Origin: Taibaiella soli
GTDB lineage: Bacteria > Bacteroidota > Bacteroidia > Chitinophagales > Chitinophagaceae
Length of the DNA: 64,000 nt
Direction: 5' to 3'
Assembly (NCBI RefSeq): GCF_003236175.1
Contig: NZ_QKTW01000025.1
Location: 1 to 64,000, forward strand
This document shows positions 17,089-23,081 of the stretch, piece after piece. Made by a program: the position numbers and the translations under genes. The notes beneath the pieces are model-generated. The model ran no database searches and was not told where the DNA came from. It worked only from the letters and a program-made list of their open reading frames with translations. Numbering within the stretch: position 1 is the first letter of the stretch; each line of letters starts with the position of its first letter.

Positions 17089-20000
17089 ATGAGATTTACT
17101 TTTACCAATTCGTTTTCCCGCCGGCTGCTACGGCGCACAGGAGCACCCAACTTCTGGACACAATCCCTTACAATGATCCTACTGTTGCTTGCGGTCGTCA
17201 GTACACCCCGTAAAGCTTCCGCCTATTGTACTACAGGCCTCGGTGGTGCCAGTTATGCAGACATTGACAGCGTCTCTATTGTGGGTACAACGTTGGCCAA
17301 CTACTCACCGGGCTATGCAAGCAGTTTTTACACTGCTTATCCAGCCTCAGGCAATACCACAGCGACTTTACTTCCTGGTTCCACTTATACCTTGTACGCA
17401 TCTTTTAATGGTTCTCCAAACACCGCCATCGCGTCCCTTTGGATCGACTATAACCAGAATGGCACGTTTGAAGCCAGCGAATGGGTACAGATCTGTACCA
17501 ATGCTGCAACAGCAACCGTATCGTTTACCGTACCTGCCACAGCATCTATCGGCACCACAGGCATGCGCGTGCGCAGTCGTGGCAACGGCAATACAAACGG
17601 CTCAGGTGATGCTTGCAGCAGCTTCGGCTCAGGCGAAACAGAAGATTATACTATTACAATTGCGTCCCCTACCCCATGCAGCGGCGCACCTACAGCGGGT
17701 ACCGCCAGCGCAACGGTAGACAGCGCCTGTCTCGGCATTCCGTTCAACGTATCGCTTAGCGGCGCAACGATCGCGGGTAATGTTACCTATCAGTGGTTTA
17801 GTTCACCGCACGGAACAAACACATTTGCAGCCATCACCGGTGCTACCAACACCAGTTATACAGTTGCCAACCAAACTGCAGGCACCGATTACCGCTGTAA
17901 AGTAAAATGTAACAATACGAACGATAGTGTGTTGTCCAACATAGTTTGGGTAGGGCAAAATTCACCATCACAGTGTTATTGTACACCTACAGCAGGCGCC
18001 AGCAGCACCTCCTACTATTTCAACAATATCACCACTACCGGCGGCGTTACCAATATGAGCTATACAGCGACTTCTTTCGTGGGGTACAATGACCGTTATA
18101 ATACTATTTCATTTTCGCAGAATGCAGGTTCGCCGGTAAATATTTCACTTGGCGTAGCCGGCGGCGGTACTTACTTTTATTACTGCTGGGTAGACTGGAA
18201 CCAGAACGGATCATTTGCAGACCCCGGCGAAACAATCTTCGCAACTACAACGTATACGTCCTCACCGTTCACCAGCACTATTCCTATTGCATTAACGCAA
18301 CCCGGCGGCAACTACCGCATGCGCATCGCACAGAGCTACATCGGCGCTGTACCGCCTTGTGGACCGGCTCCTTACGGAAACTATGTGGATGTAAAATTAA
18401 CTGTGATACCATTGCCACCTTGTACGGGCATGCCTACAGCGGGCACAGCTTCCGCCTCAGTTGACAGCGCCTGTGTCAATGTGCCGTTCAACCTGACGCT
18501 TACCGGTATGACGACAGCAGGCGGCATCACTTATCAATGGTCCAGCAGCCCGCACGGTGCAAATACATACGCCAATATCAGCGGTGCATCAACAGTCATT
18601 TATACAGTTGCCAACCAAACTGCATCTACAGATTACCGTTGTGTAATAAAATGCACCAATACTGGCGACAGCATCATATCAAACATTGTCTGGGTAGGAC
18701 AGAATACTCCTTCACAATGCTATTGTATACCGACAGGTGGCAGCAGTAGTACTTCTTTCTACCTTAATAATATCACCACTACCGGTGCGATGGCAAATAT
18801 GTCTTACACGGCTGGTGCTTATCAGGCATATGATGACAAGTACAATGCCATTTCATTCTCGCAGATTGCAGGTCAGAATGTAAACGTATCGCTGGGTGTA
18901 GCCGGTGGCAGCACTTACTATTATTACTGTTGGGTGGATTGGAATCAGAACGGTTCATTTGCAGATCCGGGTGAAACCATATTCGCGACCAGCTCCTATA
19001 TGTCGACGCCATATACGGATGTTATCCCGATCAATGCGAATCAGGCTGGCGGCAACTATCGTGTACGTTTTGCCCAGAGCTATATCGGTACCATTCCTAT
19101 TTGCGGACCGGCTCCTTACGGAAATTATGTGGATGTAAAACTGACGGTCATTCCATTGACACCTTGTAATCAACCGGTGGCAGGAACCGTCACTCCCGTT
19201 ACTCCTTGTGCCAACAACGATTTCAACCTGTCTGTAACAGGCAACGCGTTGGCTGCTGGTATCACTTATCAATGGCAGCAAAGCGCCAACGGCACCAGCG
19301 GCTGGACAAGCGCGGGTATTACCAATGCCACACAGATTCCGGCTACGGCAAATATTTCGCAGCCTACTTATTTCCGCATGATTGCGACTTGTAACAATAC
19401 AAACCTGTCTGACACCACAGCTGCTTACACTGTACAGCTGGCGCCATTCTACTTCTGTTATTGCAACTCAGCTGCAGCCACCAATTACGATGATGACATT
19501 GGTAATGTAACGGTGATCTCACAACCAGCTAATGACACGTTACTCAATAACGGTATTGCCAGTCCACTGGTACCAAATGCCACTTCCATCAATACATACA
19601 CCGATTTCAGACAATCAGTGGCGCCGGTTCCGCTGTTCCGCGACAGCACCTACTATTTAAGTGTTACACAGATCGACCAATCTTACTTCTATGCTTGTAC
19701 CGCAGTGGCATTTATCGATTACAACCGCGATGGTATTTTCCAGACAAGTGAAAATGTCTTCCAGCAAGTAACAGCCGCGACAACGCAAATGGTGAGCGCA
19801 ACGTTTACGGTTCCCGATACAGCGCAGATCGGCATTACAGGCTTACGAGTGATTCTTTCGGAGCAAACCAGCGGATCAATCAATCCATGTGGTACCAACA
19901 CCTATTCTTATGGAGAAACAGAGGATTATTTAGCCAACATCAACATGCCGCCTTGTGATGGTCCTGCAAATCCGGGTATCGCATGGTGCACAGACACTGC

Positions 20001-21033
20001 AATGTGTACAGATTACACGTTCCAGCTGACGGATACCACTCATGAACGCTTCAAATCCGGTCTGACCTGGGTTTGGCAACAAACAACCAACAACGGCAGC
20101 AGCTGGACAGATATACCAAACAGCACAGGACAAGACACGCTCTCACTTGTTTTCACGGCGCAATCTTCTTACCGTCTGAAAATGTCCTGCAGTAATACAA
20201 ATGATGTCACTTATTCCAACGCTGTATCCATAAACATTAAACCGCCGTATAAATGTTATTGTTATAGCACAGCAAACGGTGGTGCAGCAGATACATCAGA
20301 CATCAGCTCTTTCTCTATCGGCGATTTTGTGGTGACTACAGGCGGCCCGCACATTATGAATCCGCAGGCCACACGCGGTCGTACTGATTATACAGATCTC
20401 GGTCCGATAGAATTGTATTCAGACTCCACGTATCCGCTGAGCTTCTATCACACGCTGCGTGGCACAGTAGACGCTGATGCACGAGTGACGATGTTTATGG
20501 ATTTCAACAACAACCTGGTTTATGATATTCCGGCAGAAAGAATTACCCTGTCAAATGATGTCAGCACACCGGGCAACTGGTATCTGATTGATAGTGTCAC
20601 GATTCCGGAGGCAATCATCCCTGACGTACCGACAGGTATGCGTATTATCATCAACAACAATGTTGGTCCGAATACGCCATCAGACGATGCCTGCGGTCCT
20701 TATACTTCAGGAGAGACAGAAGATTATACCGTTATCTTCCGGAAAGCGAATCCACTTTCGGCGGGCAATATCATCAACATGAAAGATCTGATGATTTACC
20801 CGAATCCGACAACCGGCAAATTTGCAATTAGTTTCAGCGCAGCAAGCATTTTACATAATCTACAGATCCGTGTGACGAACGTTACAGGCCAGCAGATCAT
20901 TATGCGCAGCTATGGTGACAACATCAAACAATTCCACGAAGAGCTGGATATGACAGAACAAGCAAAAGGCGTATACTTTGTCGAATTCACAGCTGACGGC
21001 CAGAAACTGGTGCGTAAGCTTGTGGTGAGGTAG
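17089..21033 (+). CDS. Large GEVED/Ig-like adhesin with T9SS type A sorting domain
   Basis: A 1314-aa secreted protein. It has an extended N-terminal basic region and a hydrophobic signal core (M-I-L-L-L-L-A-V-V at about 29-37, cleavage near K-A-S-A-Y). At least four GEVED-type modules are marked by W-x-D-(W/Y)-N-Q-N-G-x-F and G-E-T-E-D-Y (for example near 180, 1000 and 1230), alternating with Ig-like domains carrying paired cysteines. Two Ig+GEVED units are near-duplicates offset by 744 bp. The C-terminus shows M-I-Y-P-N-P-T-T-G-K and ends R-K-L-V-V-R, the T9SS type A signal. Likely a surface-exposed adhesin or matrix protein. Confidence 0.93.
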   Translation: MRFTFTNSFSRRLLRRTGAPNFWTQSLTMILLLLAVVSTPRKASAYCTTGLGGASYADIDSVSIVGTTLANYSPGYASSFYTAYPASGNTTATLLPGSTYTLYASFNGSPNTAIASLWIDYNQNGTFEASEWVQICTNAATATVSFTVPATASIGTTGMRVRSRGNGNTNGSGDACSSFGSGETEDYTITIASPTPCSGAPTAGTASATVDSACLGIPFNVSLSGATIAGNVTYQWFSSPHGTNTFAAITGATNTSYTVANQTAGTDYRCKVKCNNTNDSVLSNIVWVGQNSPSQCYCTPTAGASSTSYYFNNITTTGGVTNMSYTATSFVGYNDRYNTISFSQNAGSPVNISLGVAGGGTYFYYCWVDWNQNGSFADPGETIFATTTYTSSPFTSTIPIALTQPGGNYRMRIAQSYIGAVPPCGPAPYGNYVDVKLTVIPLPPCTGMPTAGTASASVDSACVNVPFNLTLTGMTTAGGITYQWSSSPHGANTYANISGASTVIYTVANQTASTDYRCVIKCTNTGDSIISNIVWVGQNTPSQCYCIPTGGSSSTSFYLNNITTTGAMANMSYTAGAYQAYDDKYNAISFSQIAGQNVNVSLGVAGGSTYYYYCWVDWNQNGSFADPGETIFATSSYMSTPYTDVIPINANQAGGNYRVRFAQSYIGTIPICGPAPYGNYVDVKLTVIPLTPCNQPVAGTVTPVTPCANNDFNLSVTGNALAAGITYQWQQSANGTSGWTSAGITNATQIPATANISQPTYFRMIATCNNTNLSDTTAAYTVQLAPFYFCYCNSAAATNYDDDIGNVTVISQPANDTLLNNGIASPLVPNATSINTYTDFRQSVAPVPLFRDSTYYLSVTQIDQSYFYACTAVAFIDYNRDGIFQTSENVFQQVTAATTQMVSATFTVPDTAQIGITGLRVILSEQTSGSINPCGTNTYSYGETEDYLANINMPPCDGPANPGIAWCTDTAMCTDYTFQLTDTTHERFKSGLTWVWQQTTNNGSSWTDIPNSTGQDTLSLVFTAQSSYRLKMSCSNTNDVTYSNAVSINIKPPYKCYCYSTANGGAADTSDISSFSIGDFVVTTGGPHIMNPQATRGRTDYTDLGPIELYSDSTYPLSFYHTLRGTVDADARVTMFMDFNNNLVYDIPAERITLSNDVSTPGNWYLIDSVTIPEAIIPDVPTGMRIIINNNVGPNTPSDDACGPYTSGETEDYTVIFRKANPLSAGNIINMKDLMIYPNPTTGKFAISFSAASILHNLQIRVTNVTGQQIIMRSYGDNIKQFHEELDMTEQAKGVYFVEFTADGQKLVRKLVVR

Positions 21034-21060
21034 ACTTCAGGTTTTTATATTTTTAAGTTG

Positions 21061-21097
21061 AAGAATCCCTGGTCGTTCCCGGCCGGGGATTCTTTTT
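21061..21097 (+). terminator. Rho-independent terminator of the GEVED gene
   Basis: AGAATCCC pairs with GGGATTCT and is followed by a T5 run, 28 bp after the stop codon. Confidence 0.8.
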
Positions 21098-21256
21098 GCT
21101 ATTTGAGTTGATAATTCGTTATCGAAGGTTGACTGGTAACGTAAGGAAATGATTGTATAAAACCAGCATGGGAAACACAACTAAAAGCCTTTGGCGTTAG
21201 CGTTAAAGCTTAAAACATGCAGACGAAATTCTGATTTTCAACTTAAAAACAAAAAA

Positions 21257-21280
21257 GCCCGGAGATAGACATCTCCGGGC
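21257..21280 (-). terminator. Terminator-like hairpin 1 of an array
   Basis: A perfect 10-bp stem, GCCCGGAGAT/ATCTCCGGGC, with loop AGAC. On the minus strand it is followed by a T6 run, the arrangement of an intrinsic terminator, yet no recognisable gene lies upstream on that strand. Confidence 0.7.
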
Positions 21281-21400
21281 ATACTGATCTATGATACCTC
21301 AAGTAGTAAGGTGCACAATTTTCTTACTTTTTTTCTGTAATAAAATTCTCCTCAGATAAACATTGCAAAAAAGAAAAAGCTAGTACCGTACGACGAAAAA

Positions 21401-21426
21401 CGCCCGGAGATAAACATCTCCAGGCG
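21401..21426 (-). terminator. Terminator-like hairpin 2 of an array
   Basis: CGCCCGGAGAT pairs with ATCTCCAGGCG (one mismatch), loop AAAC, T-run on the minus-strand side. Same core sequence as hairpin 1. Confidence 0.65.
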
Positions 21427-21458
21427 TGTTAATATCACTATGTAATTTGACCCAAAAA

Positions 21459-21478
21459 CTGAAGATAGAAATCTTCAG
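21459..21478 (-). terminator. Terminator-like hairpin 3 of an array
   Basis: CTGAAGAT pairs with ATCTTCAG, loop AGAA. Relative to hairpins 1 and 2 the stem carries a compensating G-to-A / C-to-T pair change. A T5 run follows on the minus strand. Confidence 0.6.
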
Positions 21479-21601
21479 CTGCTCAATTGAGCACTATCGA
21501 TACCACTTGATAATGCATCACAATATTCATCGATTTTTTTACGCAGAAATTCACCTGGGATAATTATTACGAAAAGGTAATAGTGCAGCAGATTAAAAAA
21601 A

Positions 21602-21623
21602 CCCAGAGATAGAAATCTCCGGG
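21602..21623 (-). terminator. Terminator-like hairpin 4 of an array
   Basis: CCCAGAGAT pairs with ATCTCCGGG (one A-C mismatch), loop AGAA, T-run on the minus strand. A decayed fifth relative with only its left arm intact lies at 21728-21750. The rest of 21034-22445 shows no gene. Confidence 0.6.
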
Positions 21624-22445
21624 CCTTACATTGTTAATCCATATTTCAAAGTAGTGGTAATATTCCGACATTTTTATTTTGCTATACTTCCCTTCAGTTA
21701 ATTAGAACAAGGAAAAAAACAAAAAAACGGAGATAAACACCACAGATCTCTTATTCTTTAATCATACCATCGAAAGCTTTGCAATGACGCTACCTTTTTT
21801 CTAGAACAAAGCATTGAAACATCAGATGAATTCGAAGGCACTATCCGTAAATAACCCATCAAAATATATTTTTAGGCAATACTGAAAACAAAAAGCAAGA
21901 ATCTCTGCATTCGAAATGTAGACCACTGATGTAAATCCAGATAATTTAATAAAGAACGATGCCTTATTAAACCATAAACAAAAATGAAAGTCAAAAGCAA
22001 TTCCGCCTGGCAACTATAGGCAAACAGCTCCCTCATTTTGCAGCAACTAACCGACTGCATTTCTTCAACCCGCGTTCAAATCCCGCTGCTGTGAGAACTA
22101 ATATTTTATCAAATATTATTTGTAAATATAATTTGCCGCAAATTCATGCTTTCTAAAAAAATCATCTGATGTATTCGCCACAGAATGGCTTCCTTATTGG
22201 ATTTTCTAATTTTTACACAACTTACCCAAGGGTAATTTTTAGGGATTAAAATTTGGCAATATTGGGAAACTACTATTTTTTTAATCAAAAATTAACATCT
22301 TAGTGCATGAAGAATTATTACAACCAACAATGACCAGGTAAATACAGCATCCGCATTCAAGCGAGAAAAAGTTAACCGAACAACCCACCTTGACCTATCA
22401 GCCCGCCCAATAAAGAAATGTTCATCCCATACAAAAAACACCTTA

Positions 22446-23081
22446 ATGCTAAAAATTCAAGAACGGATAACAGAGTTTATCAAAAACTCTAACATCGATC
22501 TGAAAAGTAACCCGACAATAGACATTATAAAGATGATCATCGACACCGTTAATGGAGAAGAAGATGAATGCTTATGGTCTAAATTCGTAACAAGACGTTT
22601 CAGCAAGTGGGAAATAATCAAACATTACGACCGCATCGAGCGTTATTTAAACGTCATTGTAAAAGGCGCGGTAGGCACATTTGCCCGTGGCCCAAAGGAA
22701 GATATCTGCATTAATCTCACCTTCGAGAATGAGACCGTTACCGATTACCTTTCTGTATTACAACAAAAACCAACACCAATAAAAACAGTAGCACTCGAAG
22801 ACTGCGAAGTGCTTTCCATATCACACAACGAACTGTACAAAGCCTATGAATCGAATCCTTACAATTTATACATCCCGAAGACGGGCGTTGAAATAATGTA
22901 CATCAAAAAATACACGGAGCAGATCGATTGCCTGACGCTTTCTCCGGAACAACGTTATGAACGATTGATGGAGCTGCGTCCGCATATTCTGGAACGTGTA
23001 CCATTTAAGATTATTGCTTCTTATTTAAAGCTCACGCCACAAAGTTTCAGCAGAATGAAGAGGCGCTATGAGATGAAATGA
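22446..23081 (+). CDS. Crp/Fnr-type transcriptional regulator
   Basis: A 211-aa protein with the layout of Bacteroidota Crp/Fnr regulators: an N-terminal cyclic-nucleotide-binding-like beta domain (about 40-145, for example Y-L-N-V-I-V-K-G-A-V), a dimer helix (about 145-170), then a short C-terminal helix-turn-helix, I-I-A-S-Y-L-K-L-T-P-Q-S-F-S-R-M-K-R, at about 188-205. The canonical cAMP-binding residues are not obvious, so the ligand is unknown. Preceded by more than 1 kb without genes and followed by a strong terminator. ATG start, normal length. Confidence 0.85.
   Translation: MLKIQERITEFIKNSNIDLKSNPTIDIIKMIIDTVNGEEDECLWSKFVTRRFSKWEIIKHYDRIERYLNVIVKGAVGTFARGPKEDICINLTFENETVTDYLSVLQQKPTPIKTVALEDCEVLSISHNELYKAYESNPYNLYIPKTGVEIMYIKKYTEQIDCLTLSPEQRYERLMELRPHILERVPFKIIASYLKLTPQSFSRMKRRYEMK

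Follow-up and report, generated by a model that had tools for sequence, protein, structure and literature searches.

The window analysed here (the 64-kb stretch at positions 1 to 64,000 of contig NZ_QKTW01000025.1 of Taibaiella soli) contains a gap of 1.4 kb between two genes in which no convincing gene was found and whose left half is occupied by an array of five minus-strand hairpins, each followed by a T-run on that strand. The gene on the left (17089-21033, plus strand) encodes a T9SS-type secreted protein of 1314 aa with GEVED and Por_Secre_tail domains, from which an origin in Bacteroidota can be inferred, while that on the right (22446-23081, plus strand) encodes a CRP-like regulator with a cNMP-binding domain. 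Since both flanking genes lie on the plus strand and the hairpins on the minus strand, the latter cannot terminate either neighbour; a separate plus-strand terminator was detected after the T9SS gene by the terminator scan (21060-21095). Inverted copies of TTTTTAAGTTGAA occur at 21050-21062 and 21237-21249, and the stretch that separates this plus-strand terminator from the array lies between them.

Organization of the array

The hairpins that the first-pass annotation had placed near 21257, 21401, 21459 and 21602, together with a decayed one near 21728, were all located with their T-runs on the minus strand. In the window, 22 terminator-like sites were detected and the array is the only place where at least three same-strand terminators occur within 600 bp. 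Between 21250 and 21720 of the minus strand, the array comprises three full but diverged units of 125-150 bp (u1, u3 and u4), each made of a spacer and a terminator hairpin, and one remnant reduced to its terminator (u2); a further unit, u5, is found just upstream. Unit u1 (21250..21394) ends in a stem at 21257-21280 that reads GCCCGGAGAT-GTCT-ATCTCCGGGC and is followed by TTTTTTG. The u2 remnant (21395..21450) consists of a hairpin with its stem at 21400-21427 and of a short unrelated spacer. Unit u3 (21450..21594) carries a hairpin at 21457-21480 with a compensated stem (GAAGAT/ATCTTC core) and a poor T-run (TTTTTGGGT), and unit u4 (21594..21718) has its hairpin at 21598-21627. The tentative unit u5 (21718..21860) displays a degenerate hairpin (21725-21748), 67% like that of u1, and a spacer with an A-run. 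On the putatively transcribed strand, unit ends are thus marked by three clear terminators, by that of u3 with its poor T-run and by the degenerate one of u5.

Homology among the units

Profile models were built from two full units at a time and searched against the whole 64-kb window. In every case the third full unit was the best match outside the two modelled, with E-values of 4.4e-10 for u1 (model from u3 and u4), 1e-5 for u3 (model from u1 and u4) and 5.7e-7 for u4 (model from u1 and u3); models restricted to the spacers gave 0.0015, 0.0027 and 0.14, respectively. Spacers were also aligned locally after removal of the hairpins and compared with 500 dinucleotide shuffles. The s1-s3 and s1-s4 alignments scored 23.5 and 23.0 against shuffled means of 9.3 and 10.4, scores that none of the 500 shuffles reached in either case, while the s3-s4 alignment was weaker (14.0, reached by 15 of 500). 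In the same comparison, no kinship to the other spacers was detectable for s2 and none was convincing for s5. The leave-one-out matches and the spacer alignments together establish that u1, u3 and u4 are homologous and form a tandem repeat in the intergenic region. The proposal that the DNA between hairpins is related therefore stands for s1-s3 and s1-s4, and more weakly for s3-s4, but does not extend to the spacers of u2 and u5.

Four to five units had been counted at first sight, three of which are full. The u2 remnant is matched by the model from u1, u3 and u4 with an E-value of 2e-4, over its hairpin portion only, and u5 alone is not significant with two-unit models (E-values of 0.25-0.74), only its position and hairpin likeness suggesting that it is a unit of the array. 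In the three-unit alignment, the first ca. 60 spacer columns are 56-72% identical, the 35-39 columns preceding the hairpin ca. 30% and the hairpin 62-88%; the alignment of about 65 bp initially described thus holds for the first ca. 60 bp of the spacer and for the hairpin, but not for the ca. 35 bp before the latter, which have diverged.

Kinship of the spacers, beyond the hairpins, is left unexplained if the array is a bank of terminators that shields the plus-strand T9SS-cargo gene from antisense transcription begun further right. All hairpins do point left, to the 3' terminus of the gene at 17089-21033, with no gene in between, but a single terminator is normally enough and we regard this explanation as very improbable.

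Stem covariation and decay

The compensated change noted in the third hairpin is present and is not isolated: four of the ten stem pairs have changed on both sides when the five rows are counted. In these rows, 94% of the stem cells are paired, versus 36-50% after sliding the stem by one to three columns, and few shuffles reach the observed pairing values. The covarying stems are the main sign of past selection in the array; this sign comes from five rows and concerns termination only. Apart from the terminator, the only conserved RNA structure found was a weak 5' stem in three sequences.

Unit homology, orientation and the differing states of decay support the initial view of a decaying tandem family facing left. 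Decay by steps, with u2 truncated, the u5 hairpin broken and the u3 T-run poor, would also be seen if the array were non-functional, tandem-duplicated intergenic debris that deletion has simply not yet removed (for instance the 3' ends of a vanished gene together with its terminator), and the lack of a convincing promoter and of detected relatives (see below) goes in the same direction. Pairing maintained through double changes is unlike neutral decay, an argument drawn from only five rows and four doubly changed pairs. We consider debris rather unlikely, though nearly as likely as the small-RNA gene family discussed below.

Coding potential

Peptide precursors had been put forward as one possible content of the units, and the corresponding explanation would be that very short peptides were encoded by a tandem series of genes, now decaying, with one terminator per gene. 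An A-rich stretch precedes a possible ATG in u4 (MSEYYHYFEIWINNV...), and short frames in u1, u3 and u5 stop before the hairpin. Neither u1 nor u3 has an equivalent of the possible u4 start, no open frame is shared across units, and every frame contains stops in at least one of them; frames are interrupted and shift between units, with indels that break them. In the aligned blocks, no excess of changes was found at third codon positions and amino-acid similarity was no better than in column-shuffled controls. The translated frames had no Pfam match at E-values up to 5. With no shared frame, no codon-level conservation and no Pfam match, a family of short-peptide genes is not supported and is held to be improbable.

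Promoters and transcription

Matches to sigma-70-type promoters in the units are as numerous as expected by chance. The -7 consensus of Bacteroidetes is TAnnTTTG (PMC9723704) and no good match to a consensus of this type occurs inside u1 to u4; three near matches (21868, 21999 and 22117) are all located upstream of the array, a number within chance (1.85 expected). Neither scan thus revealed a convincing promoter in the units, and we infer transcription of the array solely from its terminators.

Search for relatives

Searches of the rest of the genome with blastn, a pattern and a covariance model detected no second copy, and a genome-wide or mobile repeat was rejected on this ground; no match was found in viral contigs, phages and plasmids, so that an origin from these last two was also discarded. 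An exact-pattern scan of the contigs of 85,000 species (genome_contigs) returned a single match, in a Bacteroides MAG (L049), which falls within a reading frame of 218 aa on the opposite strand and was taken as chance. The homologous units expected in relatives were not found in 147 family genomes (DNA and model searches) and 298 order genomes (model search). Since the same-genus search covered the source genome alone, these negatives are fully compatible with a genus-specific array.

The DNA search of the family gave many short matches (19-50 bases, E-values down to 1.4e-5) scattered over the query, which we attribute to chance, to terminators or to A/T-richness. With the model, the weak matches obtained in genomes of the family and the order scored at most 45 bits versus 101-131 for the array members, which had helped to build the model. 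Those inspected align well mainly at the hairpin, and the loci that were searched again contain no other match approaching the same strength on that strand; the weak matches were therefore taken as ordinary terminators and not as relatives of the array. Three of the family genomes (L064, L068 and L078) have in common a minus-strand terminator at ca. 1501-1560 with a sequence resembling TGTGGTTTCAGAGGTAAGCA before it. This shared element may be where a conserved RNA or gene ends (its 3' end); no Rfam match was obtained in L064 and L078.

For the array itself, nothing in Rfam exceeded the gathering score, the best match being L20_leader with 25.6 bits for a cut-off of 58.7, and a known RNA family was rejected; no tRNA or tmRNA was detected.

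Comparison with tandem sibling small RNAs

There is about an even chance, in our judgement, that the array represents a lineage-specific, tandem-duplicated short non-coding transcription unit whose copies have diverged and are now decaying. In favour of this explanation are the leave-one-out detection, the spacer alignments, the covarying stems, the triple cluster of terminators, the lack of coding signal and the gene-free location. Against it are the lack of a convincing promoter and of an Rfam match, the scarcity of conserved RNA structure other than the terminator, and the fact that, with a single promoter, serial terminators would keep the more distant units silent. The ancestral unit would have combined a conserved 5' part of ca. 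60 bp with a variable stretch of ca. 35 nt and an intrinsic terminator; tandem duplication in the lineage followed by divergence may then have left three fairly complete copies, one reduced to its terminator and one degenerate. Each unit would be, or would have been, transcribed leftwards into a short RNA of less than ca. 150 nt ended by its own hairpin.

Judging from these sequence features, small RNA genes are a plausible identity for the units. That they constitute a multi-copy, lineage-specific sRNA family absent from Rfam, with a conserved 5' part, ca. 35 fast-changing nt and a covarying terminator, is a more tentative proposal, which we regard as possible but somewhat doubtful.

In Listeria monocytogenes, the LhrC family is organised in tandem, and its copies are closer to each other than the array units, induced by stress and conserved in the genus. 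The array resembles it in that a short non-coding gene would be present in several copies, all ending in a terminator, but is an orphan and a candidate only. LhrC has been named among sibling sRNAs together with NmsRA and NmsRB of Neisseria meningitidis, which are tandem siblings with 70% identity (PMC5362039). The likeness to the latter pair, whose sequence relation to the array was covered through Rfam only, lies in homologous short units placed in tandem in an intergenic region, with 56-72% identity in the aligned 5' part of the array. Expression and targets were demonstrated for the Neisseria pair (PMC5362039), whereas the array is known from its sequence and differs further by having no recognised promoter, copies at differing stages of decay and a host of another phylum. 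If the array functions, it would do so in the manner of tandem sibling sRNAs, by base-pairing regulation, and it is not filed here as a proven member. Should it be transcribed, this branch of Bacteroidota would provide a sibling-sRNA array caught at several stages of birth and decay, which would offer a small test of the origin and loss of multicopy sRNAs; if not, it would show that terminator hairpins can outlast the units they ended.

The CRP-like neighbour

The best matches of the CRP-like regulator (22446-23081) in the sampled family genomes are 40-48% identical and occur in six genomes, and no confirmed relative was found in genome_contigs, so that a syntenic locus is lacking for comparison. 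An inverted repeat, TTACCC-AA-GGGTAA, is located at 22222-22235, ca. 210 bp upstream of this gene, and is a possible operator.
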